From Prevotella sp. (lineage in GTDB: Bacteria > Bacteroidota > Bacteroidia > Bacteroidales > Bacteroidaceae), in contig JAFUFJ010000007.1 of the NCBI GenBank assembly GCA_017469955.1, positions 1 through 64,000 of the forward strand: a stretch of DNA of 64,000 nucleotides, read 5' to 3'. Every line of letters starts with the position of its first letter. The first letter of the stretch is position 1. This document shows, piece by piece, positions 9,151-56,267 of this stretch. A program made the position numbers and the translations under genes. The notes under the pieces were generated by a model, which searched no databases, was not told the origin of the DNA, and worked only from the letters and a program-made list of their open reading frames with translations.

Positions 9151-9260
9151 GAGAAAGCTAAGCATTCAGGGTGAGAAGTCATAGCCTTCTGGTCGAGAAA
9201 GCTAAGGTTTATTGGCAAGAAAGCTAACGGTTCTCGGGCTAAAAGGGTAGCTTTCTCGGC
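9151..9260. repeat. Intergenic five-unit 22-bp array, copy 1
   Basis: Five consecutive 22-base units; units 1 and 3 begin GAGAAAGCTAA, unit 2 GAGAAGTCATA, unit 4 AAGAAAGCTAA. Unit 5 ends TAGCTTTCTCGGC, the reverse complement of the array start. Together with flanking bases the two ends form an 18-bp perfect inverted repeat (9144-9161 and 9246-9263). It lies between the susCD terminator and the GH127-type gene. Confidence 0.85.
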
Positions 9261-9415
9261 AGGAATCCATTCCCAGCCTTGCGGCAAGGCTGCGCGATGT
9301 CGCCAGAAAGACCCACGAAAGTGCGCCATGTGTCCTGTTCACATGCGCGCGTACCTTTTATATATTTACATACCAAGCTACATACATTTTCATCCATTTA
9401 CTCACATTTGCAACT

Positions 9416-11467
9416 ATGAATCAAACCAATCGGTGCCAGCTTTTCATGCTGTTTCTCCTGTCTATGCTGGCGATTCCTGTCGGGGCCCAGAAGCTTTCAG
9501 TGACTGATGTCAACCATCCCGACACGACGGTGCAGAGCCTTAGCTACGTCAACGGCCGGGCACCCCTGCGTCAGCAGTGCTTCATCAAGCTCCCCGTGGG
9601 CAGCATTCAGCCCGAGGGATGGGTCAAACGCTATCTTCAATTGCAAGCCAACGGCCTCACAGGCCATCTCGGTGAGATCTCTGCATGGCTCGAAAAAGAC
9701 AATAATGCCTGGCTCACGTCGGGTGGAGACCACGGCTGGGAAGAGGTTCCTTACTGGCTGAAAGGTTACAGTTCGCTGGCCTATATCCTCGGCGACGAGC
9801 AGATGATAGCCGAGACAAAGGTATGGCTTGAGGGGGTGTTTCGTAGCCAACGCGACAATGGATTCTTTGGTCCGGCCAACTTCGACCATGGCAAACCCGA
9901 GCTTTGGGCTCAGATGATCATGCTCGAAACCCTCATCACTTACTATGAGTATTCTAGCGACGAAAGGGTCATAAACCTCATGACCAACTATTTCAAGTGG
10001 GAGCTTCAGCTTCCTGAAGACCAGTTCCTGAAGAGCTATTGGGAGAACAGTCGCGGGGGCGACAACCTCTATACCGTGCTTTGGCTCTACAATCGCACGG
10101 GCGAAAGTTTCCTCTTGGACCTCGCCCACAAGATCCATCGCAACACAGCCAACTGGTGTCAAGCCTCCACGTTGCCCAACTGGCACAACGTCAACATTGC
10201 CGAGTGCTTCCGCGAACCGGCCACCTATTGGATGCTGACCAGCGACAAAAGCCACCTGAAGGCTTCCTACAACGACCATCATCTCATCCGCCGCACCTTC
10301 GGACAGGTGCCTGGAGGCATGTTCGGAAGTGATGAAAACTGCCGTATGGGATATATCGATCCGAGGCAGGGAGTTGAGACTTGTGGCATGGTTGAGCAAA
10401 TGGCAAGCGACGAAATTATGGCCCGTTTCACCGGCGATGCTTTCTGGGCTGAGAATTGTGAGGACGTTGCATTCAACACTTTCCCCGCTGCAACTACGGC
10501 AGATTTCAAAGCCCTTCGCTACTTTACATCTCCCAATATGGTGCAGAGCGATTCCGAAAACCATTCGCCCGGCATACAGAACCCCGGCCCCTTCCTGTCG
10601 ATGAACCCCTTCAGCAGCCGTTGCTGCCAGCACAATCACGCACAGGGATGGCCCTACTATGCCGAGAATCTGGTCTACGCCACACCTGACAATGGGGTGG
10701 GAGTGCTGCTCTATGCAGCCTGCTCGGCTAAGGTAAAAGTGGCCGATCAGAGAGAGATCGTCCTCACCGAGGAGACCAACTACCCCTTCGACGACCGCAT
10801 TTCCTTCTCGTTCAAGATGAAAGGAAAGGCCGACTTCCCCTTCTATCTCCGCGTTCCCTCGTGGAGTCAAGGCCTTGAACTGACCGTCAACGGCCGGCCT
10901 GTCGTGGTAGAAGAGATGCACGGACAGTATCTTCGTCTGCAGCGTGAGTGGCGAAACGGCGACAAAGTGACCGTCCGTTTCCCCATGACTCTGAAGACTC
11001 GTCGCTGGCAAGTCAATAAAAACAGCGTCTCAGTCGACTATGGACCACTCACACTTTCCTTGAAGATCAACGAGCGATATGTGCTCCGCGACAGCAAGGA
11101 GACAGCCATTGGCGACTCTCACTGGCAAAAGACGGCCGACTCGTCCCTATGGCCTACGAGCGAGATCTATGCCGACAGTCCCTGGAACTATGCCCTCGTG
11201 CTCGACAGCCAGACCGGACTTCCTGCTGACATCCAGCTCATTAAAAAGCCTTGGCCGGCCGACAACTTCCCCTTTACCCTCGACAGTGTACCCCTTGAAT
11301 TCAAAGCCGTCGGAGCCAGAATCCCCTCTTGGACGATGGACGAACACAAGCTTTGCGACATACTTCCCGACGAAGACTTCCTCAGTGAGCCGTCCGAAGC
11401 TGTCACGCTTGTGCCCATGGGTGCTGCACGTCTGCGCATATCCTCCTTCCCAGTCATCGAGGAATAG
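9416..11467 (+). CDS. DUF1680 family glycosidase, GH127-like (beta-L-arabinofuranosidase type)
   Basis: 683 residues with a signal peptide (cleavage near PVGAQ). The fold is the six-hairpin type of DUF1680. Known GH127 enzymes remove beta-L-arabinofuranose with a Cys nucleophile held by a zinc site made of one Glu and three Cys. The equivalent residues are visible: E321 and C323 in GVETCGM, and the C403-C404 pair in SRCCQHN, so the site looks intact. The usual CCPPN sequence is CCQHN here, so substrate specificity may differ from the standard enzymes. It follows the susCD transcript after a terminator and a repeat array, so it probably has its own promoter; TACCTTTT at 9352 is a one-mismatch -7 candidate. 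Confidence 0.8.
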   Translation: MNQTNRCQLFMLFLLSMLAIPVGAQKLSVTDVNHPDTTVQSLSYVNGRAPLRQQCFIKLPVGSIQPEGWVKRYLQLQANGLTGHLGEISAWLEKDNNAWLTSGGDHGWEEVPYWLKGYSSLAYILGDEQMIAETKVWLEGVFRSQRDNGFFGPANFDHGKPELWAQMIMLETLITYYEYSSDERVINLMTNYFKWELQLPEDQFLKSYWENSRGGDNLYTVLWLYNRTGESFLLDLAHKIHRNTANWCQASTLPNWHNVNIAECFREPATYWMLTSDKSHLKASYNDHHLIRRTFGQVPGGMFGSDENCRMGYIDPRQGVETCGMVEQMASDEIMARFTGDAFWAENCEDVAFNTFPAATTADFKALRYFTSPNMVQSDSENHSPGIQNPGPFLSMNPFSSRCCQHNHAQGWPYYAENLVYATPDNGVGVLLYAACSAKVKVADQREIVLTEETNYPFDDRISFSFKMKGKADFPFYLRVPSWSQGLELTVNGRPVVVEEMHGQYLRLQREWRNGDKVTVRFPMTLKTRRWQVNKNSVSVDYGPLTLSLKINERYVLRDSKETAIGDSHWQKTADSSLWPTSEIYADSPWNYALVLDSQTGLPADIQLIKKPWPADNFPFTLDSVPLEFKAVGARIPSWTMDEHKLCDILPDEDFLSEPSEAVTLVPMGAARLRISSFPVIEE

Positions 11468-11630
11468 GTGAAGAAGGCTGCCCCTTCACTCCGTGGATTC
11501 TTTCCTTGAAGCTGTTGAAGGGGCCCTCTCCATCCACAGAAAACTTGTGTTTTCCGGCAATCGGCAAAATAAAACAGCCCGAAAAGAGTTATATATGTGG
11601 ACTAATATTAATTTCAATCAATAGCTAATT

Positions 11631-14000
11631 ATGAGACTTTCAAAAACAATTCTGCCCCTGTTGCTGGCTTGTTTTGCCATGAACGCATCGGCCGTTGTCA
11701 AGAAACAAGCCCCGGTTGACTATGTGAATACCCTCGTCGGCACGATGTCCAAGGGTTCGTTGTCTACGGGAAATACCTATCCCGCCATAGCATTGCCTTG
11801 GGGAATGAACTTCTGGATGCCCCAGACAGGGCGCATGGGTGACGGTTGGGCCTATGTATATACCGAAGACAAGCTGCGCGGTTTCAAGCAGACCCATCAG
11901 CCTTCACCCTGGATTAACGACTATGGACAGTTCGCATTCATGCCCGAAACCGGTCGCCCGGAGTTCCATCAAGACAAGCGTGCCTCATGGTTCTCCCACA
12001 AAGCCGAGGTGGCAAAGCCCTACTATTATAGCGTCTATCTGGCAGACTACGACATCACTACGGAGATAACTCCCACTGAGCGTGCTGCCATGGTGCGCAT
12101 AACCTATCCTGAAACCTCCGAAGCCAGCTTCATTGTCGATGCCCTTGACCGCGGTTCCTATGTGAAAGTTGTTCCGCAAGAGCGCAAGATCATCGGCTAT
12201 ACCACGAAGAACAGCGGCGGTGTGCCCGACAATTTCAAGAATTATTTCGTACTGAAGTTCGACCATCCCTTCAGGGTTGTCAACGTTGTTGATGTGAAAG
12301 GCGAGCGTCGTGGCGATGCCTATAAGGAGTGTAACGTGCTCAGTCAGTCTGAGATACAGAGTGATCATGCCGGAGCTGTCGTACAGTTTGAGGGCATGAA
12401 GCGTGGCGAACAAGTCCATGTTTGCATAGCCTCTTCGTTCATCAGTGTCGAGCAGGCTGAGCATAATCTGCAGGAGATCGTCCAGGCAGGCGGTTCGTTT
12501 GACAAGGTGAAGCAGGCCGCTTTCGACCGTTGGAACGAAGTGTTGGGACGCATAGAGGTCGACGATCAAGACATTGATCACTTACGTACGTTCTACTCAT
12601 GTTTCTACCGTTCGGTGCTGTTTCCTCGCAGTTTCTTCGAATATGACTCGACAGGTCAGCCCGTCCACTATAGTCCTTTCAATGGAGAAGTCTTGTCAGG
12701 CTACATGTTCACCGATACAGGTTTCTGGGACACCTTTCGATGCCTCTTCCCCTTTGTCAATCTGGTTTATCCCTCGATGGCTGTCAAAATGCAGCAGGGA
12801 CTGGTCAACGACTACCTCGAAAGTGGCTTCCTTCCCGAGTGGGCCAGCCCCGGTCATCGCGGTTGCATGGTAGGCAACAACTCGGCTTCCATCGTGGCCG
12901 ATGCCTATTTGAAGGGCATTCGCGGCTATGATGCCGAAAAGCTCTGGGAGGCAGTGGTACACGGAGCCAACGCCGTTCATCCCCAAGTACAGTCAACCGG
13001 GCGCCTTGGATACGAGTATTACAACAGACTTGGCTACGTGCCCTACGACGTAAAAATCAATGAAAACGTAGCCCGCACGCTGGAATATGCCTACGACGAC
13101 TGGTGCATCTATCAGTTTGGCCGGGCACTTGGCAAGACAGATAAGGAGCTTGCTCCGTTCAAAAAACACGCGCTTAACTATCAGAACGTCTTCGATGCTG
13201 AAAGCCGTCTGATGCGCGGACGTAACCAAGACGGCACGTTCCAGTCGCCTTTCTCGCCCTACAAGTGGGGAGATGCCTTCACCGAGGGTAATGCCTGGCA
13301 CTATACTTGGAGTGTCTTCCACGATCCGCAGGGGCTGATTAACCTCATGGGAGGTCGTGAAAGCTTCAATGAAATGATGGATTCCGTCTTCGTAGTCCCA
13401 CCGATTTTCGACGACAGTTATTATGGAAGCGTCATACATGAAATACGTGAGATGCAGATCATGAACATGGGTAACTATGCACATGGCAACCAACCTATCC
13501 AGCATATGCTCTACATGTATGGCTTCTCCGGGCAGCCTTGGAAGAGTCAATACTGGATTCGCGAGACCATGGACAAGCTCTATTCGGCCAATGCCGACGG
13601 CTATTGCGGTGATGAAGACAATGGACAGACGTCGGCCTGGTACGTGTTCTCTGCCATGGGATTCTATCCCGTTTGCCCGGGAAGCAATCAGTATGTGCTC
13701 GGAACTCCTTACTTCGACCGTGTGAAACTGCATCTTGAGAACGGCCAGACCGTCACCATATCGGCCAAGAACCAGGCTCGCGACCACCGTTATGTGCAGT
13801 CGCTCAGCCTCAACGGAGTCTCCTACGACAAGAACTTCATTACTCATGCCAACCTGCTTTCGGGTGCAACGCTCGACTTTGTGATGGCCGATGCGCCCAA
13901 TACGACCCGTGGAACGGCTCTTGACGCAGCACCTTACTCGTTCACCAACGAGCTCGCTGCCGAGCAGCCTGTGAAGAAGTCAAAGAAGCGTAAGAAGTAA
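11631..14000 (+). CDS. GH92 family protein with Gln at the general-acid position
   Basis: 789 residues with a signal peptide. It matches GH92, a calcium-dependent exo-alpha-mannosidase family: VDYVNTLVGT at the start of the N-terminal beta-sandwich, AIALPWGMN and WAYVYTEDKLRGF, then the (alpha/alpha)6 domain with FWDTFRCLFPF, LPEWASPGHRGCMVGNN and GDEDNGQTSAWYVFSAMGFY. The family loop is normally HGNEP, whose Glu is the general acid; here it reads HGNQP, with Gln at residue 621 (codon 13491-13493). From memory, a GH92 enzyme with the same exchange cleaves mannose-1-phospho-6-mannose rather than a plain glycosidic bond. The C-terminus is unusually basic (KKSKKRKK). The calcium and base region looks intact. 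Confidence 0.9.
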   Translation: MRLSKTILPLLLACFAMNASAVVKKQAPVDYVNTLVGTMSKGSLSTGNTYPAIALPWGMNFWMPQTGRMGDGWAYVYTEDKLRGFKQTHQPSPWINDYGQFAFMPETGRPEFHQDKRASWFSHKAEVAKPYYYSVYLADYDITTEITPTERAAMVRITYPETSEASFIVDALDRGSYVKVVPQERKIIGYTTKNSGGVPDNFKNYFVLKFDHPFRVVNVVDVKGERRGDAYKECNVLSQSEIQSDHAGAVVQFEGMKRGEQVHVCIASSFISVEQAEHNLQEIVQAGGSFDKVKQAAFDRWNEVLGRIEVDDQDIDHLRTFYSCFYRSVLFPRSFFEYDSTGQPVHYSPFNGEVLSGYMFTDTGFWDTFRCLFPFVNLVYPSMAVKMQQGLVNDYLESGFLPEWASPGHRGCMVGNNSASIVADAYLKGIRGYDAEKLWEAVVHGANAVHPQVQSTGRLGYEYYNRLGYVPYDVKINENVARTLEYAYDDWCIYQFGRALGKTDKELAPFKKHALNYQNVFDAESRLMRGRNQDGTFQSPFSPYKWGDAFTEGNAWHYTWSVFHDPQGLINLMGGRESFNEMMDSVFVVPPIFDDSYYGSVIHEIREMQIMNMGNYAHGNQPIQHMLYMYGFSGQPWKSQYWIRETMDKLYSANADGYCGDEDNGQTSAWYVFSAMGFYPVCPGSNQYVLGTPYFDRVKLHLENGQTVTISAKNQARDHRYVQSLSLNGVSYDKNFITHANLLSGATLDFVMADAPNTTRGTALDAAPYSFTNELAAEQPVKKSKKRKK

Positions 14001-14029
14001 ATCCTGCCTGCAGGCGAAACCTTTATCGG

Positions 14030-14068
14030 GAGGTCTGGCACCCAGTGTGCCGGGCCTCTCTTTCGTTT
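14030..14068 (+). terminator. Terminator after the GH92 gene
   Basis: A 12-bp stem with two G-T wobble pairs (GAGGTCTGGCAC at 14030, GTGCCGGGCCTC at 14047) and a five-base loop is followed by TCTTTCGTTT. It lies 30 bases after the stop codon. Confidence 0.6.
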
Positions 14069-14096
14069 CGTGCCGTCGTCTGTCAGCAATGCTCCC

Positions 14097-14206
14097 GAGA
14101 AAGCTATCCTTTTAGCCCGAGAAGTCTATGGGTTCTTGTCAATAACTCTATCCTTTCTCACTAATAACTCTATGACTTCTCACCCTAAACCCTAAGCTTT
14201 CTCGGG
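14097..14206. repeat. Intergenic five-unit 22-bp array, copy 2
   Basis: Five 22-base units in a row: two start GAGAA (GAGAAAGCTATCCTTT, GAGAAGTCTATGGGTT), two start AATAACTCTAT, and the last ends AAGCTTTCTCGGG. With three flanking bases the ends form a 12-bp perfect inverted repeat (CCCGAGAAAGCT at 14094, complement at 14195). It sits between the GH92 terminator and the promoter of the next gene. Confidence 0.85.
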
Positions 14207-14372
14207 AATCGGCCATTGAGAATACGCCGTCATACATTAGATTGCCCGGTGCGAAGGGCTGCCGTTCGGGACGGAAAGCCATTGCCTCTTTTCCCGTTAT
14301 CCATGGCAAACCTTTTCGTGAAAGGCCTCTTTGGCGATTTCCCAGATGCCCGGAAAAAAGTTGGACGAATAG

Positions 14373-14403
14373 TTGCATGGCGGAGGAAAAATGCCTACTT
14401 TTG
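14373..14403 (+). promoter_or_regulatory. Promoter of the GH2-GH29 gene
   Basis: TACTTTTG at 14396-14403 matches the Bacteroidetes -7 consensus TAnnTTTG exactly, and a TTG lies 20 bases upstream. Transcription would begin near 14408, so the in-frame ATG at 14216 is excluded and the start at 14435 is favoured. Confidence 0.7.
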
Positions 14404-14434
14404 CATGTATAATCAACAATCCCTGACGAAACTC

Positions 14435-17400
14435 ATGAGAAACAGACGCTTATTGCTCTTCCTGTCCATGCTTTTTGCCGTGCTTTCCAGTGCGTGGCCG
14501 CAGGAGTTGACGCGTGGCATTGGTACCTATCCCGGTCGCCTGGGCGAATATTACGGTCCTGTTTTCAGTGTCGACACGGCCTATACCAACATCGCCCTGC
14601 ACCGTATAGTCACCCAGTCGTCGGCCTATGACTACAATCTCACGGCCCAACTGCTCACCGACGGTGTCGCAGACCGGCAGGCTCCTGTTCGTCTTGAGGC
14701 GCGTGCCAACGGCCGTTTGCTGGGCAATCGCGAGCGCGAGAGTGCCCTCGACGGCAACGAATGGACGCGCGTGCTGGCCGAAGGAAGCAACGTCACGCTC
14801 GACTTCTGTTGGCACAACATGCTGATAAAGGCCGACGAAGTGGTGCTGCATGGCTATGTGGCCTATGCTGAAGGCGCCCCTTCGCAGGGCAGCCGGTTCG
14901 TGTGTACGGCTGTCGACGACAAGGGAAAAGCGCTTCAACGCGTGCTGAAAAGCAAGACTTTGCCCGGCAAGGCCATGAGCGGAGGTGTCTCTTCCGACCC
15001 TAACAAACAGACGGAGACTGGCAGATTGCCTGCCCGCGAGCTCAACGAAGGGTTCAAGTTAAGGCGTGGCATGTCGCTGAGTCGCCTCGAGTTTTCGCTG
15101 CAATTAGCGGGAGCAGCCTACTGGGTCGTCACCGAAATCGAGTTCGTTCGCGACGGAAAGACCGTCCATGACGTCCTGCCTTCAGGCGTCTTCCGCAGCT
15201 GGTGGATGCCCGCTCCCGACGACGTTGCTCCCTGGGTTTGCGTCGATCTGGGCACAGTGGCCGACATCAGCGAGGTGCGTCTGCACGGCGAGGATGAGCA
15301 TGCAGCCCGGCTTTCAGTGTCGGCCGACGGGAAAACGTGGAAGCATGTCTCTGCGAAGATGGCCGAACGTGCCCGGTATGTGCGCGTAGAGACCGCCGGC
15401 ATGCTTTCCGAAATCGAGGTGTTCGGGCGCAATGGCCTGCGGGTTTTGCCCCATCCGGAAGTGGGATGGCAAGGCGATAAATACATGCTTAATGGCGGTG
15501 ACTGGCGCCTTTCGCCCGCCGACTCGCCCGCACTTGCCGTCACTGCCACCGTTCCGGCTACGGTTCTTTCGAGCTATGTCAATGCCGGCTCGCTGCCCGA
15601 CACCAACTTCGACGACAATGTCGCGATGGTCTCCGAGTCGTTTTTCCTGCGCAACTTTCTCTATACCCGCACGTTCCGTGTGCCGAAAGAGATGCTTGGA
15701 AAACGCATTTTGCTCAACTTCGACGGCATCAACTGGCAGGCTTCCGTGCAAGTTAACGGCCACGACGTCGGCACCATCATGGGAGCTTTCCTGCGCAAGC
15801 AGTTCGATATTACCCCATATGTCAGCGACGAAAGCAACACCTTGAAGGTCAGAATCATTGCAAACGCCAACCCAGGTGCCGTTAAAACGAAAAACGAGCA
15901 GACCACAGACTTCAACGGCGGCATCCTCGGAGCTGACAATCCAACCTATCATGCCACCGTCGGATGGGACTGGATCACCACCGTTCGCGGCCGAGACATC
16001 GGCATTTGGAACGATGTCTACTTGTCTTCCGCCGAGACCATCACCATCAGCGACCCGCTTGTCTCGTCGGAAATTGACGGCAATCGGGCCACCATGACGC
16101 CGTCAGTCTTCCTTAAAAACCACCTCGGGCAGGCCGTCTCAGGCACATTGAAAGGCTTCATCGGCGAAATCCGGTTTGAAAAGTCCGTCACCATTCCTGC
16201 CCTTTCCGAGCAGGAAGTGACGTTCCTTCCCGGCGAATATCCCCAACTTCTCGGTCAGGAGATGCACCTCTGGTGGCCTAACGGCTATGGAGAGCCCTAC
16301 CTTTATGAGGCCGGTTACAGCTTCATTCCTTCCTCTTCAGCCGGCGAACCGCAAGCCTCCATCTCCTATAAGGCCGGCATTCGCGAGGTGACTTGGCGAG
16401 ACGAGCTGACCCGACTGCAGCTCTTTGTCAACGGCAAACGCCTCGTACCTCTCGGAGGAAACTGGGGATTCCCCGAGAGCAACCTCAATTATCGTGGTCG
16501 CGAATACGACACAGCTGTCGGCTATCACCGGCAGATGAACCTCAACATGATACGCAATTGGGTCGGCCAGACTGGCGATGATGAGTTTTTTGAAGCCTGC
16601 GACAGGAATGGAATCATGGTGTGGCAGGACTTCTGGCTGGCCAATCCTGTCGACGGACCCAACCCTGACAACGAACAAATGTTCGTCGACAATGCCCAGG
16701 ACTTTGTGCGTCGCATCCGTCAACACCCTTCCATCGCGCTCTATTGCGGTCGCAATGAAGGCTATCCGCCCGGGACCTTAAACCGTAGTCTCGCCTCCAT
16801 CGTCGAGACAAACCATCCCCATATGCTCTACATCCCTTCGTCGGCTGACGATGGAGTCAGCGGACACGGCCCTTATCAGGCACGTCCTGTGGAAGAGTAT
16901 TTCGAGCGTCAAACGGGTAAGTTGCACACAGAGCGCGGCATGCCCAATATGCCTAACATCGAGAGTCTGCGCCGAATGTTGTCAGAAGAACACCTCTGGC
17001 CGCAGGGAGAGCATTGGGGTCGTCACGACTTTACACAGCAAGGAGCACAAGCCGGAGCATCATTCAACGCCATCATCGACCGCCGTTTCGGCTACAAGGC
17101 ACGCATAACAGCCGACGATTCGGCAGCATCGCTCTACGCATCCCTTGCCCAATGGCAGAACTATGACGGCTATCGTGCCATGTATGAGGCATCAAACAGC
17201 CCCGGAACGACCGACATTCCTGGACGGCAAGGCTTGCTGATCTGGATGAGTCATGCCTGCTGGCCGTCTATGGTATGGCAGACCTATGACTATTACTTCG
17301 AACCTACGGCAGCGTTCTTCGGCGTGAAGAAGGCCTGCGAACCGCTGCATGTCCAGTATAATGCCTCGTCAAACAGCGTCGAACTGGTGAACCTTGCCGT

Positions 17401-19225: not shown

Positions 19226-19235
19226 TTGACGTGCT

Positions 19236-19874: not shown

Positions 19875-19900
19875 GAAGGCGCCGGCTTGTCCGGTACAAT

Positions 19901-45262: not shown

Positions 45263-45323
45263 GAGAGTGGGCGGGAGTCTCCCGGTGAAGGGTCAGCCCG
45301 GTGGTGACGAATGACAGTGAAGG

Positions 45324-46208: not shown

Positions 46209-46227
46209 ATTGTTTGTCTTTTGTCTT

Positions 46228-46707: not shown

Positions 46708-46737
46708 ATCTGTCGTGTGAATGGTTCAGGCTTGGTT

Positions 46738-47747: not shown

Positions 47748-47777
47748 TCTCGTCGGAATCTTCTATTTATAATACGC

Positions 47778-47817
47778 AAAAAAGTCCCATTTGTAACAAG
47801 CAAAAGGGACTTTTTTT
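47778..47817 (-). terminator. Terminator of the second susCD transcript
   Basis: AAAAAAGTCCC and its complement pair over 11 bases around a 17-base loop, and the minus strand ends in TTTTTT. It separates susD from the sigma-factor operon that follows on the same strand. Confidence 0.8.
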
Positions 47818-47849
47818 CAAAAAAACGGCATTTTTCTTGCAGACAAAGG

Positions 47850-49526
47850 TTAGTAACCCGGATTTTGCTGCAGGTTGTTGTTGAGCTCAATGGCCTGTGC
47901 AGGTATCGGAAACACAATGGTGTGCCGGTCGCTTTCGCCGTCGAGCTGGGGCCTCAAGTCATAGGGTTTGTGGAATCGATCGAAACGAATGAGGTCTTGA
48001 CGGCGCCATCCTTCCCACATGAGTTCAAGCAGCCGGTCGCTGAGAATCTGGTCTAAGCTGTTGCTGTTTCGGTAGCTCGTAGGGGCTCCCACACGCTCAT
48101 AGAGCTGCAGGCATGCGTCGGTTTCGGGTAGGTTGAGCTGCCCGCGCAGACATGCTTCGGAAACCATCAGCAGCACGTCGGCGTAGCGGAAGAGCACGAT
48201 GTCGTTCTGACAAAGCTGTCCGTCACTGTATGCCGTGCGGTCAATCTCATACTTCGACATGCGTGCTCCGGCAGTCTTCTCATATTCAGAACCGCTCAAG
48301 TCGAGCCTTACTTCAAAGGGATAATAGACAAGAGGCTGGCCGTCTTGCAGCAGAACAGGCTGGCCGTCGACCGTGACTTCTCCAGAGAAGAAGTTCATAT
48401 CCCAGCGCGGATCGGTGGAGAAAACCATGTGGGCACGATAGGTTGTGGCCGTTGAGAGCGTGGCGCACGAGCCGTTTTCACAGTCCATTCCTACGGCTCC
48501 TCCGTGAGCATAGTGGAAGGAACGGAAGAGATATTTGAAGATGTTGGGATAGAGAGTCTTGTCCATTGGAATAGTAAAGATGTTCTCCACCGAGGCTTCG
48601 TTGTGTACGGCGAAATTCTTGGCATAGTCTTCTTCGAGACGATAGCCAAAGTCGGTGAGCTTGTTGCAGTAGGCTATGCAGGTCTCCCAGACGTTTCCTT
48701 GCGGTACGTCGGTCAGGTTGAACACCGTCTGGCTACCTTCCGGCCGGTTGTTGTCAGTCCAGTCGTCGTCAAGATACACCTCTGCGTTGAGCATCAGCTT
48801 TGCCATTAAGAACCATACGACTGGGCGGGTAATGCGGCCATAGTACTCTCCCTCCTGGTTGCTTCTGCCAAGTGGCAGCGACGAAACGGCGCTTTGCAGC
48901 TCGTCAACGATAAACTTGAAGGCTTCGCTGCGCTCGCTTTGACGGATGTCTGACAGCGGAACATCTTCACTTGTGACAATGGGAATGCGACCGAACATGT
49001 CCATCAAGTAATAGTAGAACAAGGCTCGCAAGGCTCGCACCTCGGCTTTGTAGGCTGCCAGTTGCTCGGTTGTAAGCAAGCTTTGGTATTGGTCAAGGCG
49101 TGCCAGTGAACGATTGCAGAGCATGACTACCTTGTAAAGATAGGTCCATGTGGCATAAAGCTCATTGTCGTTGGCCGTCCAAGTGTGCAAGTAGAGGTGC
49201 TGCCAAAACCCTCCGTCGTACCAGTCTCCGCCGCGAGTGGGCAGCATGGCCTCGTCGGTTGTGAAGGTATTGTAGTCATAGACACCGCGATAGGTACCTT
49301 GAAGACCTTCGGAATCGGCATGCCCTCCTATATAATTATATAAGGTAGCCACAGTGTTGATATAGAGACTTGACGCCGAAGCGTAGGCTTGTTCTTCGGT
49401 TAGCTGCCCGCGTGGGTTCTCGTCAAGGCATGAAATGACAAGCAATGATGTCAACAGGCATCCTCCAATTTGCAGACTTCTGGCCGTTGGCTTGCAGAAA
49501 AGTCTTCTTATAGTTGTCGTTATCAT
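47850..49526 (-). CDS. SusD/RagB-type lipoprotein, second locus
   Basis: 558 residues, a normal SusD length. Lipobox SLLVISC. SusD-type features are the N-terminal EEQAYASASSLYINTVATLYNYI, the AYKAEVRALRALFYYYLMDMFGRIP motif near 165, and a C-terminal DRLLELMWEGWRRQDLIRFDRF segment, then PIPAQAIELNNNLQQNPGY at the end. It partners the SusC 64 bases upstream. No glycosidase gene lies beside this pair, so its substrate is open. Confidence 0.94.
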   Translation of the reverse strand: MITTTIRRLFCKPTARSLQIGGCLLTSLLVISCLDENPRGQLTEEQAYASASSLYINTVATLYNYIGGHADSEGLQGTYRGVYDYNTFTTDEAMLPTRGGDWYDGGFWQHLYLHTWTANDNELYATWTYLYKVVMLCNRSLARLDQYQSLLTTEQLAAYKAEVRALRALFYYYLMDMFGRIPIVTSEDVPLSDIRQSERSEAFKFIVDELQSAVSSLPLGRSNQEGEYYGRITRPVVWFLMAKLMLNAEVYLDDDWTDNNRPEGSQTVFNLTDVPQGNVWETCIAYCNKLTDFGYRLEEDYAKNFAVHNEASVENIFTIPMDKTLYPNIFKYLFRSFHYAHGGAVGMDCENGSCATLSTATTYRAHMVFSTDPRWDMNFFSGEVTVDGQPVLLQDGQPLVYYPFEVRLDLSGSEYEKTAGARMSKYEIDRTAYSDGQLCQNDIVLFRYADVLLMVSEACLRGQLNLPETDACLQLYERVGAPTSYRNSNSLDQILSDRLLELMWEGWRRQDLIRFDRFHKPYDLRPQLDGESDRHTIVFPIPAQAIELNNNLQQNPGY

Positions 49527-49590
49527 AATGGATAGTTGTTGATGATGATGAATAATCTTCCTCTGTTTGCAGGTGATTTTTCCTGATATA

Positions 49591-52302
49591 TCAGAACTGG
49601 ATGCTCAGTCCGAAGGAATATGAACGGTAGGGTGGGTAAGAACGCTTGTCGTCAATGCCGAGCGTGTTGGAGACGACATAGCTGTTGATCATGGGAGTAA
49701 GCCCGCTATAGCTGGTGATAGTGCCAAGGTTGTTGACCGAGCATGACAGCCTTAGCGCACTGATATGCTTAGAGCGGACGGGCACGTTCCAGCCTATGGT
49801 GACATAATCGAAGTTCAGATAATCACCGCTTTCCAGCCAATAGTCGGTAGCAGTCTGATCCTGTATGTTCTGCAGAGGTGCCTTTTCCATGACATTGTAG
49901 TCGGGAAACGACGCCATGTTCATATAGGTAAGTGAAGTGCCATTGTATATCTTATGCCCGAAAGCCCCGTTCATTTGCAGGGAGATGTCAAAGGCTTTAT
50001 ATCGGAAAGAAACGTTCGATCCGAGCGTCATCTTTGGCGTTGCCTGCCCAGCAATGTATCGGTCGCCGCCGTCTTCGATGTTGATGTCGCCACTGTTGTC
50101 AAGGTCGGCTATCTCATAAGAGTAGCTCCCGTCGGCATTCTTGGTAAGCCCTGTGCAGTGCGGCAAGTAGAAAACACCCAGTGATTCGCCGACAATTTGG
50201 TAGACGATGTTATTGTCTCCTCCATGAAAACCGGCACCGTTCAGCGCCCCGATTGACGTGACATCTGCTGCAGACATGTATTGCCCGTTGTGGTAACCCG
50301 ATAGAGAAATCAGCTTATTCCGTTGCCATGACAGGTTGACATTGATGTTCAGTTCCATGTCTTTCCTTTGCAAAGGTGTTGCACCAAGGCCGATTTCAAT
50401 ACCGCGATTCTCCATTTTCCCGATGTTAGCCAACATCTTTTCATAGACATATGGGGGCACTGGGACGTCATACATGTATAGCATGTCGCGGGTCTTTGAG
50501 TAGTAATATTCGGCAGTCATCACAATGCGATTCTGGAGAAATCCCATGTCTGTTCCGATGTTAAACGTGGAACGCGTCTCCCATTTCAGGTCAGGGTTGC
50601 TGTTTTTGCTGATGCTCATGGTGACGACTGGTGAGCCGTTATAGGGTACGACGCCGTTCTGTCTGAGCAAAGAGAGGGAGTTGTAAGAGGATATTCCTCC
50701 AAGGTTTCCCGATTCTCCCCAGCCGGTTCTGAGCTTGAATGCGGAGAGAAGTTGGCGTATGTCGGACCTGTTTCCGATGTCTTTCATCACATCCCATTCG
50801 GCCGATACTGACGGGAAATAGCCCCAAGTGTTATTCTTCCCGACCATAGACGAACCGTCGGCACGCATGGTGGCTGATATCTTATACCGGTCTTTCAGCG
50901 TATAGTTCGTACTTATCATGGCAGATGCCAGCGACGGATCTTGGTATTCTGAGTCAGTTCCGCCGTAAGGACGGATGCTCCCGGCACCTAAGTTGTCGTA
51001 ACCAAGTTCGGTAGTGGTGAATCCTTTTACCAAAGTCCAGAATCCTGTCTGCCTGCTTTTCTGGTATTCTCCCAGAAGAGATGCCTCTAAGTGATGCTGT
51101 TGCCATGTGTTACTGTAGTTCAACTGGGCATTTCCCAACCAGTCTTCTGTCTTGTGTTCACCCCTGTAAGCCTGTCCTTGAGCCCAAACCCAGGTGGGAC
51201 AGAATATCCCATTCTCCGTAGATGCATAGGAATATGACCCGAAGAGCGACCCTTTCAGGTTGCCTGTCTGTGGTGAAGCCAGCATGTTGAAGGTCAGTTC
51301 TGCATGAGTATTGAAGTTGAGGTTCTTTTCGTTGTCCTTCTCATACAGCAATGCTCCTGGCGGATTTATCTGAGAAGCGTTTCCGTTTTTGTCCCATCCG
51401 CCGTTTTTATTCATGCCTGAAGGATAAGTGGGATTCTGCGTAGCTGCCGAGTAGAACAGCTTCTGATCGTCGAATATATACCGGTTGTCCTGAGATGAGC
51501 CGAACACTCCAAGGTCTATTTTCAGGAAGTCGTCAAAGGCATGTTGCTGTAAATCGACTTTTGCGATGAAGTTTTGGTATTCGTTTACGCGGACGATTGT
51601 GCGATGATCCATCAGGCCAATCGAGGCTCTATAGCTCGATTTTTCTGACCCTCCTGAGAAAGCAACGTGATGGTTCTGCACGTAACCTGTCCGTGTAACA
51701 ACGTCTTGAAAATTAGTGTTGTAGCCGCCATCGGTGGCAAAAATTCCAAGCGTCTGTGCTGTATTCAGGTAGGCATCCCTGTCCATCATGCTGATGGTTC
51801 CATATTTTTGTTCAAAACCGACGTTGCCATCGTAGGAGATATGGAACTGTCCTCCATGTCCTTTTTTCGTAGCAACCTCAATCACACCGCTTGCTCCTCG
51901 CGAGCCGTATTGTGCGGTTTCAGCTGCATTTTTCAGGATGGTGAACGACTCGATGTCTGCCGGATAGATGGTAGAGAGCGTGGCAAGGTCAGACGATACT
52001 CCGTCAATGATGACCAACGGGTCGTTGCCTCCTGTCAGCGAAGTGGTGCCTCTGACTCGTACCGACGACAGCATTGCCATTCTGTCAGAACCGCTTGAAG
52101 CCACATTTACACCGGCAGCCTGTCCCGTCAAGGCATCCAGAGAGTTGTTCAGGAGTCCTTTGTTCATGCGGTCTTCGCCCACTCTGTCAACCGAACCTGT
52201 TTGATGTCGTTGCTGCAGAGAGTCTGTTTTTTCTGTCTGAGCATGTGAGTTGATGGTCCATGCGGTTAGCAAAAGACAGAATAAAAGTCCGTTTTTTCTC
52301 AT
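49591..52302 (-). CDS. SusC/RagA-type TonB-dependent transporter, short N-terminus
   Basis: 903 residues, about 150 shorter than the SusC at 2454. After the signal peptide (cleavage near NSHAQ) there is no carboxypeptidase-D regulatory-like domain; it goes in about 40 residues straight to the plug (LLNNSLDALTGQAAGVNV, VRVRGTTSLTGGNDPLVIIDGV). The barrel and the C-terminal YSFGLSIQF are intact, so it is not a degraded gene. Known short relatives exist, but how they couple to TonB is less clear. It is transcribed from 52331-52338 with its SusD behind it. Confidence 0.93.
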   Translation of the reverse strand: MRKNGLLFCLLLTAWTINSHAQTEKTDSLQQRHQTGSVDRVGEDRMNKGLLNNSLDALTGQAAGVNVASSGSDRMAMLSSVRVRGTTSLTGGNDPLVIIDGVSSDLATLSTIYPADIESFTILKNAAETAQYGSRGASGVIEVATKKGHGGQFHISYDGNVGFEQKYGTISMMDRDAYLNTAQTLGIFATDGGYNTNFQDVVTRTGYVQNHHVAFSGGSEKSSYRASIGLMDHRTIVRVNEYQNFIAKVDLQQHAFDDFLKIDLGVFGSSQDNRYIFDDQKLFYSAATQNPTYPSGMNKNGGWDKNGNASQINPPGALLYEKDNEKNLNFNTHAELTFNMLASPQTGNLKGSLFGSYSYASTENGIFCPTWVWAQGQAYRGEHKTEDWLGNAQLNYSNTWQQHHLEASLLGEYQKSRQTGFWTLVKGFTTTELGYDNLGAGSIRPYGGTDSEYQDPSLASAMISTNYTLKDRYKISATMRADGSSMVGKNNTWGYFPSVSAEWDVMKDIGNRSDIRQLLSAFKLRTGWGESGNLGGISSYNSLSLLRQNGVVPYNGSPVVTMSISKNSNPDLKWETRSTFNIGTDMGFLQNRIVMTAEYYYSKTRDMLYMYDVPVPPYVYEKMLANIGKMENRGIEIGLGATPLQRKDMELNINVNLSWQRNKLISLSGYHNGQYMSAADVTSIGALNGAGFHGGDNNIVYQIVGESLGVFYLPHCTGLTKNADGSYSYEIADLDNSGDINIEDGGDRYIAGQATPKMTLGSNVSFRYKAFDISLQMNGAFGHKIYNGTSLTYMNMASFPDYNVMEKAPLQNIQDQTATDYWLESGDYLNFDYVTIGWNVPVRSKHISALRLSCSVNNLGTITSYSGLTPMINSYVVSNTLGIDDKRSYPPYRSYSFGLSIQF

Positions 52303-52330
52303 GTTTAGGATGATTTTGGTTTTCTATGTG

Positions 52331-52338
52331 CAAAGGTA
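52331..52338 (-). promoter_or_regulatory. -7 promoter element of the second susCD pair
   Basis: TACCTTTG on the minus strand matches TAnnTTTG exactly and lies 29 bases before the susC ATG. No convincing -33 TTTG is seen at 19-20 bases, which may mean that it needs an activator. Confidence 0.6.
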
Positions 52339-52486
52339 ATAGATAAAATCTGAATATCTTAAAAAATGATGTGTTTTGGAGAAGAATCTTTTTTCTTTTT
52401 TTATTGTAGGTGACGGAACAAGGTGTTTACGCCGGATACTCTTGTGGGTGTCTTGACGAAGAGTGCGCGGGGTAGGGGTGATTCGA

Positions 52487-52528
52487 AATGAAGCAGGGGC
52501 AGAATGTTGGTCCTGTCCCTGCTTCATT
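52487..52528. terminator. Stem-loop behind the phosphoesterase operon
   Basis: A 16-bp stem with one wobble pair (AATGAAGCAGGGGCAG at 52487, CTGTCCCTGCTTCATT at 52513) and a 10-base loop. The T tract after it is short, so it is a likely but not certain terminator for the minus-strand phosphoesterase transcript. Confidence 0.55.
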
Positions 52529-52575
52529 GATGTGTGTATTCCTGCCGACGCTTGGTCTTTCGGCTGATACATTGT

Positions 52576-53547
52576 CTATATGAAGAGAATTTCCCGTCCG
52601 TGGAAGAGGAAGCTGCCTGCCACAAGATATTCACGACAGGTGGGTGAGAACCGGTCTTCCACGCTGATGTGCTCATGCCCGGCAAGTATACATCTGAGTA
52701 AAGGCTCCTGCTTCAGGTATGCAATGAAGTCGCGAGTCACGGAGTCTTCTTGCTGAGCTTTATAATCACTCTTAGCTTCGGGCATCTCTCCTGTGGTCAT
52801 TCTTCCCTTTTCATGCCAAAAGCGATGGGTGGCTCTCCATATGTTTCCGGTGTAGAATGGTACGTGCATGCAGAGCACAATCGGCAGCCCTTTCTTCACT
52901 TCTTCTTTGAAAAGAGCCACCTGTTCAGCTGTCACGTAGCCGTAAACATCGTCGAGTGTGATGAAGTTGACGCCGTTTGCTACCTGAGATTGGAATCTCA
53001 CGTCGAAGGGATAGACGCTTTGCAAGAGGCTTCTTGTTCGGTCTTTGAATACTTCGGTGTGCTCTTCTTTGGGGTTGCTGAGCCACATATCAGGAGAGAA
53101 CTCGTGGTTGCCCATCGAGCCGATGAGCCCATTTCCGAAGTATTTTCTTACGAGATCAAAGTTAGCTTCGCTCTGCCAGTCGATGATGTCTCCCGTATGT
53201 ACGACATAGTCGACGTGCTGTTTTGCCCATTCGAGCGCGTCTCTCAGAGCCTCTTCCTGCCTTCCTCCGAAGGTCTTGGTGCGTGTTTTGTTCAGTTCCT
53301 GCTTGTTCTTGTCCTCATGAGCATAGGCTGCCGTGAGATGGCTGTCTGAAAGATGCAGGACTGAGAACGGCTGCTTCAGTCCGATTTCTACGGTGGCATA
53401 GCTCAGGGAAAGCCTTTCGTAGCGTCCGCGTTCGGAAAACACCTTCGGCTTGTCTTTGGCTATTGCCGGCAGTTGCGACGTGGCAATCAGGGCTCCTACG
53501 CCAGCCATGCGCTTGATGAAGCCCCTTCGGTCGATGTTGTGTTCCAT
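52576..53547 (-). CDS. Exported metallophosphoesterase (Tat signal)
   Basis: 323 residues. The N-terminus has a twin-arginine type signal (DRRGFIKRMAGVGALIATS). The calcineurin-like metal site is present in the usual order: HLSDSH at 65-70, HTGDIIDW, GNHEFS, and histidines in CMHVPF and AGHEHIS. Substrate specificity cannot be predicted. It lies 18 bases behind the FMN-binding protein gene and is the last gene of that cluster. Confidence 0.85.
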   Translation of the reverse strand: MEHNIDRRGFIKRMAGVGALIATSQLPAIAKDKPKVFSERGRYERLSLSYATVEIGLKQPFSVLHLSDSHLTAAYAHEDKNKQELNKTRTKTFGGRQEEALRDALEWAKQHVDYVVHTGDIIDWQSEANFDLVRKYFGNGLIGSMGNHEFSPDMWLSNPKEEHTEVFKDRTRSLLQSVYPFDVRFQSQVANGVNFITLDDVYGYVTAEQVALFKEEVKKGLPIVLCMHVPFYTGNIWRATHRFWHEKGRMTTGEMPEAKSDYKAQQEDSVTRDFIAYLKQEPLLRCILAGHEHISVEDRFSPTCREYLVAGSFLFHGREILFI

Positions 53548-53565
53548 GGTTTTTCAGTAAAAGGT

Positions 53566-53952
53566 TTATCGGTGTTCTTCGTAATATTTGAGTCCTTCCT
53601 GCACGTTCTTGATGAGAGCTTCCGACGACATGGTAGCTCCCGAGACGGCGTCCACCTTCAGTGTCTTGGCCTTCTGGATGTCTTTTCCGCTATATTTCTT
53701 CAAGACATTCTTGGCCTGATTGAAATATTCGGGTGTCTCTTTGGTGGGAAGTGCCACTACTTTGGCGATTTTGTTTCCTTTGATGTGAATCTCTACGGGC
53801 GTGGTGTATTTGTATCCACGGATGCTTTTGGTGATCGGCTTGGTGTTGACGATGGTCTCACCGCCTTGTTTCGTGACGACTTCGTCGCCAGGCATCATGC
53901 TCATCAGGCATGCTGAGACGGCAAATGCGCACAAGTATACAATCTTTTTCAT
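53566..53952 (-). CDS. Exported FMN-binding domain protein
   Basis: 128 residues from MKKIVYLCAF, with a signal peptide. A longer in-frame reading back to 54555 runs through the neighbouring gene and is rejected. The FMN-binding domain covers about 50-125, with VDAVSGATMSSEALIKNV: the SGAT-type motif is where ApbE flavin transferases attach FMN to a Thr/Ser in related proteins such as NqrC and RnfG. It may be a small covalent flavoprotein carrying electrons outside the inner membrane. It is 32 bases behind a membrane protein gene and 18 before the phosphoesterase. Confidence 0.8.
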   Translation of the reverse strand: MKKIVYLCAFAVSACLMSMMPGDEVVTKQGGETIVNTKPITKSIRGYKYTTPVEIHIKGNKIAKVVALPTKETPEYFNQAKNVLKKYSGKDIQKAKTLKVDAVSGATMSSEALIKNVQEGLKYYEEHR

Positions 53953-53984
53953 TTTTCTTGTATGTTTTAAGTTGCTATGTTCAT

Positions 53985-54761
53985 TTAGAAGTTGATGGCA
54001 AGTCCCAGCGACGGTATGCTGTTGAGGCTGCCCGTCGGCATGGTGACAGCCATGGGTTGTGCGGTCAGTGAGAGCGACATGGCGTTGCCGACGGCCTGTC
54101 TTCGGTAGCTTTTCGACGCGTAAAGACAGGGAATGCTGCCTGCTATCAGGACGCCTGCCGGCACCAGTGCCGGTGTGTAGAGCGGGTTTTTGTGGCCGCT
54201 TTGGCTCTCGTAGATGTAGAACGATCCCACCACTCCGGTGGTGATTCCTAAGACGAGTGCCGTTTCGCCGATGCCTTTCCACAGGCGATAGCGCCGGTAG
54301 TCGTGGCTGTTTCGGAAGGTTTTCAGCGGAGAAGCCACGTCGGAAGGCATCAGGTCGTAGGCTTGTTGTCGGCCTCTTACGGCCTGTCGGTTGGCCACTC
54401 TGAGAAGTGGTATCGATGCAACGGTGATGGCTGCTCCGCCAAAGAACATCGAATAGACCACGGCGTCCGACGCATTGGTGTCGCCAAATATGTTGACAAA
54501 TGCCAGAAACAGTCCTGAGTACATGCAGACAGGTCCTGCGGCCATGGCTGTCCATCCCAAGGCTTTCGTGGTGCGATGGTGTCGCCAGCCGGGCGTCTGT
54601 CGCAGGTATTGCTTGAAGTAGGCTTCGCTGTAGATGTCTTCTTGCGGCGTAGCCTGTGGCATTTCGAGCCTGGTCTCGGAGCTGATGCTGTCGGTCTGCG
54701 CCGTAGCTTTGACGGCTGTCAGCAGCATGGCGGCGAGGATGGCCCAGATGTGTCTGTTCAT
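53985..54761 (-). CDS. Membrane protein of unknown function
   Basis: 258 residues with a signal peptide (cleavage near VKATAQ). Four hydrophobic segments follow: ALGWTAMAAGPVCMYSGLFL, YSMFFGGAAITVASIPLL, ETALVLGITTGVVGSFYI and PALVPAGVLIAGSIPCLY, between polar, basic loops (RRYRLWKG). I do not recognise the family. It begins the cluster with the FMN-binding protein and the phosphoesterase, with gaps of 32 and 18 bases. Confidence 0.7.
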   Translation of the reverse strand: MNRHIWAILAAMLLTAVKATAQTDSISSETRLEMPQATPQEDIYSEAYFKQYLRQTPGWRHHRTTKALGWTAMAAGPVCMYSGLFLAFVNIFGDTNASDAVVYSMFFGGAAITVASIPLLRVANRQAVRGRQQAYDLMPSDVASPLKTFRNSHDYRRYRLWKGIGETALVLGITTGVVGSFYIYESQSGHKNPLYTPALVPAGVLIAGSIPCLYASKSYRRQAVGNAMSLSLTAQPMAVTMPTGSLNSIPSLGLAINF

Positions 54762-54825
54762 GTTTTCAGGACGATTTTCAGGTTTTCTTCCGTGTTTTCT
54801 TCCGCCTTATGGTGTGAGAGCCGGC

Positions 54826-55725
54826 TTATACGAGGTGTCTGATGAGCTCTTCACGGTCGCCTGGCAGCATGTCGATGACGGGAATCTCAATCATGGTGTA
54901 GCATCCGGGCTGCTGACGCAGCGATGCACGGGCCACGTTGACCAGCACTTGGGCCGTCAGGGCGGGGTTGTTGATTTGCATATTGAACTCGAGACGCTGG
55001 TTTTGCGTCTTTCCAGAGACGCCCTTTCTGACGAGGTTGACTCCGTGTCCCATGTCGCGAACGTCGTCGACGCTCTCCACCTGGAACACGTGTGTCTCGT
55101 CGGATGCAAAGTAAGGATCGGCTTTGACGGCTGCCGTCACCTCGTCAAGGCTGGCTCCTTCTTCGAGCTCTACATAGACCATTCGGCGATGAATGCCCTC
55201 GCCGAGGGGGATAGTCATCGAGAGTGCGTTCTTGACTCCTGCCTTCGACCGCACACAAACCGAGTGTCCCATCGACATTCCCGGCCCGAAGTTGGTGTAG
55301 GAGAGGCCTTTTGGTGCCAGACTTTGCATGAGTGTTCTGACGATGGAGTCGCTGCCCGGATCCCATCCTGCGGCAATGATGCTGACGGTGTCGGTCTGCT
55401 TGTTGATGGTGTTGAGGGCTCGGCGATAGTCTACGATGCCCGTATGGATGTCGAAAGAGTCGACGGTGTTGATGCCCAAAGGCAAGATCTGCCGGGCATA
55501 TTCCTCGCAAGAACGGGTGGGAGTTGCCAGTATGGCTACGTCGACATGCTCAAGTTGGCGGATGTCGCTCACCACCTTGTAGGGCGTCAGTTCCAGGGGT
55601 TTGCCCTCAGAACCCTGACGGCGCACGATGCCTGCAATCTCGAAATCGGGCGATGCCTCCAAGGCTTCAACCGTGAATCGTCCGATGTTGCCGTATCCTA
55701 CTACGGCTGCTCTGATTTTCTTCAT
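54826..55725 (-). CDS. ddh: Meso-diaminopimelate D-dehydrogenase
   Basis: 299 residues from MKKIRAAVVGYGNIGR; the upstream in-frame ATG at 55851 would be non-coding leader. The NADPH-binding GYGNIG motif, the AILATPTRSCEEYA and AAGWDPGSDSIVR segments and NFGPGMSMGHSV are typical. The enzyme makes meso-diaminopimelate directly from tetrahydrodipicolinate, a one-step lysine and peptidoglycan branch known in several Bacteroidetes. The promoter is about 100 bases upstream. Confidence 0.93.
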   Translation of the reverse strand: MKKIRAAVVGYGNIGRFTVEALEASPDFEIAGIVRRQGSEGKPLELTPYKVVSDIRQLEHVDVAILATPTRSCEEYARQILPLGINTVDSFDIHTGIVDYRRALNTINKQTDTVSIIAAGWDPGSDSIVRTLMQSLAPKGLSYTNFGPGMSMGHSVCVRSKAGVKNALSMTIPLGEGIHRRMVYVELEEGASLDEVTAAVKADPYFASDETHVFQVESVDDVRDMGHGVNLVRKGVSGKTQNQRLEFNMQINNPALTAQVLVNVARASLRQQPGCYTMIEIPVIDMLPGDREELIRHLV

Positions 55726-55828
55726 AGTGTTGTTATCCGTTGTTTGTGTAGTTGTGCGATGCTGACTGGTGGCGCATGCCGTGGTGCCAGGTGTGGAAAC
55801 CCGGACCGAGGGTTGCGCATAGTGGGTG

Positions 55829-55860
55829 CAAAGATAAGGAAAAACGCACATAGCGCCAAA
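55829..55860 (-). promoter_or_regulatory. Promoter of ddh
   Basis: On the minus strand TTTG-N20-TATCTTTG, an exact match. The predicted leader is about 100 bases, long enough for regulation, but no known riboswitch pattern is seen. Confidence 0.7.
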
Positions 55861-56157
55861 GGAAACCTGCCGATTTTAATTTTCTTTCAGAAAGTCTTAC
55901 TGTTTTTTTCTGCTCTCGAACGAAGTGCAACATGCAGCAGAATGGCGTCGCAGCATCGCAGGAAAGGGCTTGGACGGCAACTTGGAAACTGACATTCGGG
56001 ACATGTGGAGGGCAGGGGAATGATGGCATTTTGTAATGATTGCTCGCAGTTTTCTTGCCGAATCATGATGAAAAATCTGAGCAAAGAAAATGAGATCGAC
56101 AAGGACTTTGGCAGTGAATAAACGTCGTTCAGCATCGCAATGCCGCGACTTGCCGAC

Positions 56158-56267
56158 GAGAAAGGATAGCTTTCTTGGCCACAGATCATAGCGTTCAGGG
56201 CTTGAAATGTAATGTATACAAGGAAGAATGCTATCCTTTCTGGGTGAGAAACCTGCCCCTTCTCGCA
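56158..56267. repeat. Intergenic 22-bp array, copy 8 (degenerate)
   Basis: Five units fit a 110-base frame, starting GAGAAAGGATAGCTTTC and later AAGAATGCTATCCTTTC. Only a short inner inverted repeat (GAAAGGATAGC / GCTATCCTTTC) remains, so this copy looks decayed. It lies between divergent ddh and ruvA. Confidence 0.7.

Follow-up and report, generated by a model that had tools for sequence, protein, structure and literature searches.

Arrays of 22-bp units with one geometry and several sequences lie in register with an 11-bp A+T rhythm in a Prevotella genome

A stretch of 64,000 nucleotides from Prevotella sp. (positions 1 to 64,000 of contig JAFUFJ010000007.1, GenBank assembly GCA_017469955.1; here termed the window) holds eight arrays of 22-bp units lying in gaps between genes. 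Analysis of this and further stretches of the same genome revealed that such arrays fall into several sequence families that share a 22-bp geometry and a layout independent of the sequence, that one of these families, termed family 1, is symmetric, that the coding DNA carries an 11.02-bp rhythm of A+T content, and that the arrays are in register with this rhythm, both here and in two other genomes. The arrays may serve as docking sites for a symmetric, chromosome-coating protein, itself hypothetical, that contacts DNA every 11 bp, a reading to which somewhat less than even confidence is assigned.

Results

Copy number and anatomy of family 1

The genome sequence examined comprises 2,259,279 bases and is 75.6% complete. 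Of this, 858,030 bases (38%) were read, as long stretches of seven contigs chosen for the matches listed in them, such that array density in this sample may run somewhat high. Genome-wide, the pattern GAGAAAGCTA was found 149 + 145 times, as compared to 3 + 4 times for the reversed control. When the sample was scanned with a 107-position profile, 101 hits scoring at least 12 (two of which overlap to form one longer array) and 88 scoring at least 80 were obtained; the same scan of the reversed sequence gave no hits, even at the lowest threshold. The proposal in the initial annotation, made from the window alone, that these are copies of a dispersed non-coding element was in this manner supported, there being far more than a handful. 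Its expectation of five units throughout held only for family 1, since a three-unit family 2 also exists. Five units are moreover built into the 107-position scan, and it is the lag scan described below that offers a free test of the period. No match to the family-1 pattern was seen in a wider collection of genome contigs, from which records of the source genome were possibly excluded.

Once the 88 high-scoring family-1 arrays had been oriented by their asymmetric centre unit, their ends proved to be nearly invariant and their inner units variable, with each unit carrying AA at positions 4-5 and TT at positions 15-16 in 86 to 88 of the 88 arrays. The variable three-base slots are filled by AGC, GTC, AGG, CCC, CTC or ACC in 820 of the 880 half-site slots, where 448 would be expected were positions independent, and by ATC in 5, where 122 would be expected. 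The six words are linked by single-base steps, as if copies might drift among a few tolerated forms. The family-1 consensus displays dyad symmetry without compensatory coupling, as would be expected of DNA bound as a duplex by a symmetric protein and not of a single strand that pairs with itself; strong coupling was seen between columns one to three bases apart. An apparent avoidance of complementarity at the array centre was an artefact of the asymmetric centre unit and was gone once the arrays had been oriented. Pairwise identity among the 88 arrays averages 0.735 and reaches 0.944 in the best pair. Three arrays of this genome that are 0.944 identical (L012:17907, L013:1419 and L013:15674) have some 66 bp of one flank largely in common, the sole clear copied flank among the best pairs listed.

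One period in several sequence families

With family 1 masked, 31 more arrays were detected at lag 22 in the sample; of the 26 other lags between 14 and 40, lags 18, 21, 33 and 36 yielded one array each and the other 22 lags none. When noncoding arrays of any family were called at 60% identity over 66 bases, 86 were found at lag 22 and 54 at lag 44, with none at the other lags from 12 to 60. The period is common to three families, namely GAGAA..TTCTC, GCAAW..WTTGC and CATAC..GTATG, the layout of each of which can be read as 5-3-3-3-5 bases plus a 3-base joint. Dyad symmetry lay above the 99th percentile of random windows in 66 of the 86 noncoding lag-22 arrays. With units that are contiguous, joints of 3 bp and no unique spacers, the arrays are not organized as clustered regularly interspaced short palindromic repeats (CRISPR).

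The family-2 unit is of the type GCAAWASATSATSTWTTGC plus 3 bases, and its 19-base pattern occurs 57 times genome-wide, as compared to 0 times when reversed. An exact family-2-like unit was also noted in seven viral stretches (L195-L201), possibly by chance, the 19-base pattern being ambiguous; one 22-base family-1 pattern found no match in viral contigs.

An 11.02-bp rhythm in coding DNA

The phased marks of family 1 run past the ends of the arrays, with TT at 15-16 (to the left) and AA at 4-5 (to the right) being present at 0.50 to 0.66 for four units. Around 76 arrays, a period-22 skew of A minus T was in phase with the array in 15 of 16 flank distance bins, out to about 1.5 kb and through coding DNA, and with family 1 masked, a single clear peak, at 22.05, stands out in the A-T spectrum from 8 to 40 bp.

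When A+T content was considered in coding DNA alone, a power of 25.15 at 11.02 bp was obtained against a background of 0.76 (8.8-kb windows). With arrays left unmasked, power rose with window length, from 3.8 at 275 bp to 11.3 at 1.1 kb, 26.7 at 4.4 kb, 34 at 8.8 kb and 44 at 17.6 kb. The phase correlation between 550-bp pieces decayed with distance, being 567 at 0.55 kb, 211 at 2.2 kb and 81 at 4.4 kb, and was gone by about 12 kb. The rhythm holds step over about 2 kb, with its phase wandering beyond. Shuffling codons within genes removed the rhythm, leaving a power of 2.2 at 8.8 kb. A+T modulation amounted to 0.107 at third, 0.035 at first and 0.027 at second codon positions (noise, 0.003), with the same phase in all three. 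The rhythm is visible in most 2-kb windows of one contig (C4) and, at 11.02 bp over the 858-kb sample, it corresponds to the persistent periodicity (A/T-based, of about 10-11.5 bp, over most of the chromosome) described for certain other bacteria.

Register between arrays and rhythm

Comparing the phase of each array with that of its flanking 2 kb at 11 bp gave a resultant of 0.59 for family 1 (170 flanks) and of 0.61 for the other families (48 flanks); modulo 22, the A-T skew of the same flanks gave resultants of 0.565 and 0.436, respectively. At 22 bp, array-free random segments gave 0.06 (coding) and 0.11 (intergenic), a single segment being mostly noise at this period. Within the window, 13 of the 16 array-flank comparisons agreed to within 1.8 bp, with both flanks of the array at 9151 and one flank of that at 56158 being the exceptions (Table 1).

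Arrays and rhythm in other genomes

The array profile matched 52 of 248 congeners (53 of 249 when the source genome is included), while a 17-base core pattern was present in none of 79 other genomes (47 congeners and 32 genomes of other families). Array motifs vary from species to species. Counting lag-22 arrays per 100 kb, with coding DNA not excluded, gave 7 in G026, 4 in G016 and 2 each in G108 and G024; the same stretches contained arrays at lags of 23 (5) and 21 (1) in G026, of 23 and 33 (one each) in G108 and of 25 (one) in G024. Among 80 named loci, kept as the best of 596 dnaE matches and representing Prevotella and close kin at 69-79% identity, 13 noncoding lag-22 arrays were found in 13 loci, 11 of them symmetric. 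On the strength of these dnaE matches, the source genome was assigned to Prevotella in the broad sense. The pooled autocorrelation of these loci was discarded as evidence of arrays, being dominated by coding signal. Noncoding repeats with periods that are multiples of 7 and 8 bp are likewise present, in several species, in the named Prevotella loci (L095-L174), including 14 arrays at lag 14 and 16 at lag 21. In 20 stretches (260 kb) from other families of the order, two lag-22 arrays were found, neither of which is symmetric.

A clear 11-bp rhythm was seen in G016, G154, G200 and a few other genomes, and was weak or absent in many; power reached at least 5 in three of 20 congener stretches, 15 of which had been chosen around profile hits. 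Pooled over 30 flanks from genomes selected afterwards for their strong rhythm, the register resultant was 0.59 (p 2e-5), with P. koreensis being about 5 bp out of phase. G154 and G016, both picked earlier for a strong rhythm, were retested on fresh 200-kb stretches. At lag 22, the G154 stretch held 22 noncoding arrays, of which some are low-complexity runs of purines or pyrimidines, and it held 22 arrays at other lags combined (7 at 15, 4 at 29, 4 at 37 and fewer elsewhere), whereas that of G016 held 7 at lag 22 and 1 at another lag. The register resultant was 0.405 in G154, as compared to 0.178 for random segments (p 6e-4, 44 flanks), and 0.575 in G016, as compared to 0.34 (p 0.009, 14 flanks), both p values being optimistic, as paired flanks are not independent. 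In congeners that had not been selected for a strong rhythm, no register signal was seen in G108 (4 flanks), G024 (4), G026 (12) or the named loci (21), and the array-flank resultant in weak-rhythm genomes was about 0.41 (26 flanks). As an aside, the purine- or pyrimidine-rich repeats of G154 (L223-L232) occur at lags of 15, 22, 29 and 37, near multiples of 22/3.

Upstream of dnaE, lag 22 was the best lag in only 4 of 76 relatives (in one of these, the sequence is A-rich and of low complexity) and lag 14 in 7; array positions thus turn over.

Genomic placement

All three types of gap are occupied, as had been reported for the window: of 79 arrays placed, 39 lie in tandem, 21 in divergent and 19 in convergent gaps, resembling the distribution of all gaps of at least 150 bp (105, 47 and 54). 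In tandem gaps, 20 arrays run along the genes and 19 are opposed, showing no strand bias. As to the initial description of the arrays as lying outside genes, by crude calling 18 of the 88 family-1 arrays overlap an open reading frame (ORF) of at least 90 amino acids and 4 of the 88 one of at least 150 amino acids, including the array at 35231. In this last case, the ORF of 301 amino acids that crosses the array on the minus strand has no Pfam match, is antisense to Pfam-matched thioredoxin and deaminase genes and looks spurious.

The arrays are more evenly spaced than would result from a random choice of gaps (coefficient of variation, 0.66 vs. 0.88 with a standard deviation of 0.09), with none of 2,000 simulations giving as low a value. 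Distances between neighbouring arrays do not cluster modulo 22, and when about 220 candidate periods were considered over 80 neighbour distances, the best resultant was 0.26, which is not counted as a signal.

Arrays of the window

The 22-bp period first reported for the window was recovered in all eight arrays. Five units and a shared core apply to six of these, one of them degenerate; those initially placed at 19901 and 30236 instead belong to family 2 and have three units. The arrays are listed in Table 1, where marks refer to the AA at unit positions 4-5 and TT at 15-16 and phases to the offset from the two flanks.

Table 1. Arrays and rhythm in the 64,000-nucleotide window
Feature	Positions	Strand	Remarks
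Family-1 array, five 22-bp units (107 bp)	9151..9257	-	10/10 AA/TT marks; phase 2.0 and 3.4 bp off flanks
Family-1 array, five 22-bp units	14097..14203	+	10/10 marks; phase -1.3 and -0.4 bp
Family-2 array, three 22-bp units (initially placed at 19901)	19939..20004		One unit is the exact family-2 pattern; phase 0.0 and -0.7 bp
Family-1 array, five 22-bp units	26152..26258	+	10/10 marks; phase 0.6 and 0.3 bp
Family-2 array, three units at 30274-30339, preceded in frame by half a family-1 unit (initially placed at 30236)	30252..30339		Phase 0.9 and -1.8 bp
Family-1 array, five 22-bp units	35231..35337	+	10/10 marks; phase 0.1 and -0.1 bp
Family-1 array, five 22-bp units	45153..45259	-	10/10 marks; phase 0.6 and 0.5 bp
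Degenerate family-1 array	56158..56264		8/10 marks; scan score 26.9; phase 0.3 and -2.0 bp
11.02-bp A+T rhythm, genes included	1..64000		Arrays masked: peak 11.022, power 29.3, 4.4-kb windows

A search of the whole window against Rfam at the gathering threshold returned two tRNAs only, leaving the arrays without an Rfam family. By Pfam, the array at 35231 is neighboured by a deaminase gene (ending at 35151) and an amino acid kinase gene. Between mechanically called ORFs, at 28070-28171, lies a further tandem repeat, absent from the initial annotation, whose period of 44 is twice 22 and whose sequence fits none of the three families. Elsewhere, the window encodes SusC-type receptors, a GH92 glycosidase, a LacZ-type galactosidase and PorW of type IX secretion (2454-5624, 11631-14000, 20623-24054, 39430-43047 and 49591-52302), as is usual in Bacteroidales.

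Discussion

In the reading preferred here, each array would dock a two-fold symmetric DNA-binding protein making one contact per 11 bp, in alternating orientation, such that one dimer would span 22 bp and three to five dimers would lie side by side. The same contact would continue weakly along the rest of the chromosome and, over evolutionary time, would leave an 11.02-bp A/T rhythm in the genes, with the arrays being the strongest in-register points. We infer that such a protein exists, that it is of the nucleoid type and not a set of ordinary regulators, and that its anchoring or nucleation occurs at the arrays. A binding site of this general sort, for a nucleoid protein or regulator and with 22 bases corresponding to about two helical turns, had been among the initial proposals and is supported. 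A more far-reaching view, namely, that the Prevotella chromosome is kept in a locally fixed register by an 11.02-bp nucleoprotein lattice for which species-specific arrays serve as landing sites, with genes and even some of their amino acids bent to the lattice, is a possibility that we hold to be doubtful. Were such a protein lattice confirmed, the packaging of the chromosome would be seen to shape genes at the level of single bases and even of some amino acid choices.

Several observations weigh against a docked protein. Array-free random segments are also in register at 11 bp, with resultants of 0.46 (coding) and 0.50 (intergenic), as compared to 0.59 for arrays, and the register therefore extends over the whole genome, arrays included. 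Out to about 3 kb from the nearest array, the strength of the rhythm stays level; it is lower at greater distances (from about 6.6 to 4.95 at 6-9 kb), returning to 6.6 in 12 windows lying farther away still, and neighbouring arrays have no common phase beyond 2 kb. With strength barely tied to array distance and neighbours out of phase, these data do not single out the arrays as setting the rhythm. Arrays occur in weak-rhythm species too; in G154, dyad symmetry lies beyond the random 99th percentile in just 7 of 22 arrays; and the A-versus-T parity at 22 bp, seen in the source genome and perhaps in G200, is missing from G016, G154 and G012. As for candidate proteins, RemA-like proteins were found in none of 40 genomes, and Lrp-type proteins, with two matches in the source genome, are not expanded. 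HU-HIG proteins (PF18291), which are expanded in the genus, gave 7 matches in the source genome, 2-30 in 23 congeners (G001-G023), 1-4 in 15 of 16 genomes of other families and 12 in one, and are, by eye, not higher in number in genomes with family-1 profile hits. On such genome counts, neither RemA, Lrp nor HU-HIG is convincing as the lattice protein.

A purely mechanical curvature code is a serious rival, albeit one that we consider rather unlikely. Here, A/T runs phased at 11 bp would confer an intrinsic curvature suited to negatively supercoiled DNA, without any specific protein, and the arrays would represent the sharpest bends, such as at loop tips. This is the usual reading of periodicity near 11 bp in the excerpted text of PMC4132750 and PMC3431218, and it sits well with a rhythm in A+T that runs through both coding and noncoding DNA and resides chiefly in the third positions of codons, with a strength that is nearly independent of array distance, and with the arrays of G154, which are largely T-tracts 11 bp apart lacking dyads. 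Curvature alone, however, calls for neither the six slot words, nor distinct families with one layout, nor the parity modulo 22 of the source genome. Several families per genome with one layout, together with motifs that depend on the species, could denote operator arrays of several paralogous conventional regulators acting cooperatively at two-turn spacing. This is deemed quite unlikely, given that the distribution of arrays among gap types reveals no preference for promoters, and it would not explain why all families are in register with coding DNA.

Dispersed intergenic copies with inverted-repeat ends and a species-specific sequence, as well as a flank copied along in three places, might point to transposase-driven spread of a miniature mobile or BrickBuilt-like repeat. 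Against such spread, which we judge improbable, none of the 88 family-1 arrays is bordered by a target-site duplication of 4-9 bp (offsets 0 and 3; 0 to 0.4 expected), mean pairwise identity is 0.735 and one period is maintained across unrelated sequences. Shorter flank duplications at offset 0 comprise one of 2 bp (3.1 expected) and six of 3 bp (5.0 expected). The register with flanking genes likewise speaks against insertion, although an insert of 110 bp, at about ten periods, would presumably keep phase. Finally, the single strands of several arrays fold better than their shuffles, with z down to -12.4, as a transcribed RNA hairpin or terminator would. Still, over 38 arrays 68.6% of cells pair, as compared to 70.6% upon shuffling, hairpin column pairs in the 88 arrays couple with a mean z of 0.30 against 0.24 for other pairs, with no covariation, and the arrays occupy divergent gaps and are oriented at random relative to genes. 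The RNA hairpin family entertained in the initial annotation thus has almost no likelihood.

Comparison with known systems

Proteins that wrap DNA, among them Lrp octamers and RemA, would make contact with it at regular helical steps; in light of the counts presented above, these are offered as work-alikes only, with no membership being claimed. Repetitive extragenic palindromic sequences and bacterial interspersed mosaic elements (REP/BIME) are likewise numerous, intergenic and palindromic, yet are not set on a fixed 22-bp frame, whereas here geometry is constant and sequence is not. The BrickBuilt miniature inverted-repeat transposable element of Porphyromonas gingivalis, as portrayed in the excerpted text of PMC4596501, is also a noncoding, intergenic tandem array from Bacteroidales, with a unit of about 22 bp and short inverted-repeat ends. 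In that text, however, its unit is of 23 nt and of another sequence, is present in 19 copies with a leader and a tail, and its ends are shared with insertion sequences. The units described here are 22 bp long, no array was found at lag 23 in the source genome sample, and the family-1 ends differ by eye from the BrickBuilt terminal repeats as given there.

In its period, its A/T basis and its use of third codon positions, the rhythm resembles the genome-wide A-tract and WW periodicity of about 11 bp variously discussed as a structural code, as A-tract clusters or as the persistent periodicity of Abel and Mrazek. According to the portions of the sources considered, this periodicity is A/T-based, occurs in coding and noncoding DNA and resides mostly at third codon positions (PMC4132750), while some chromosomes are periodic over most of their length, with Mycoplasma hyopneumoniae and Campylobacter curvus being persistently periodic (PMC3431218). 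In E. coli, local periodicity extends over at least 1 kb, and an unknown binding partner was proposed as its reader but not found, in the same portions of PMC7537859; the cause of the rhythm, seen in many bacterial genomes, has been open for decades. The present rhythm is much stronger than that of E. coli K-12, for which one 50-kb stretch gave a power of at most 3.9 by the same measure and of 3.3 in 4.4-kb windows, as compared to 26.7. Discrete, sequence-specific 22-bp arrays sharing the register of the rhythm are not mentioned in the excerpts of these three papers, and no account of such arrays was found in open-access papers. Where a very strong rhythm is joined by discrete, high-copy, sequence-specific arrays in register, the arrays can be used directly to fish for the partner and can serve as reference points in footprinting. 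While the rhythm alone is of a known kind, we call its combination with in-register 22-bp arrays categorically new.

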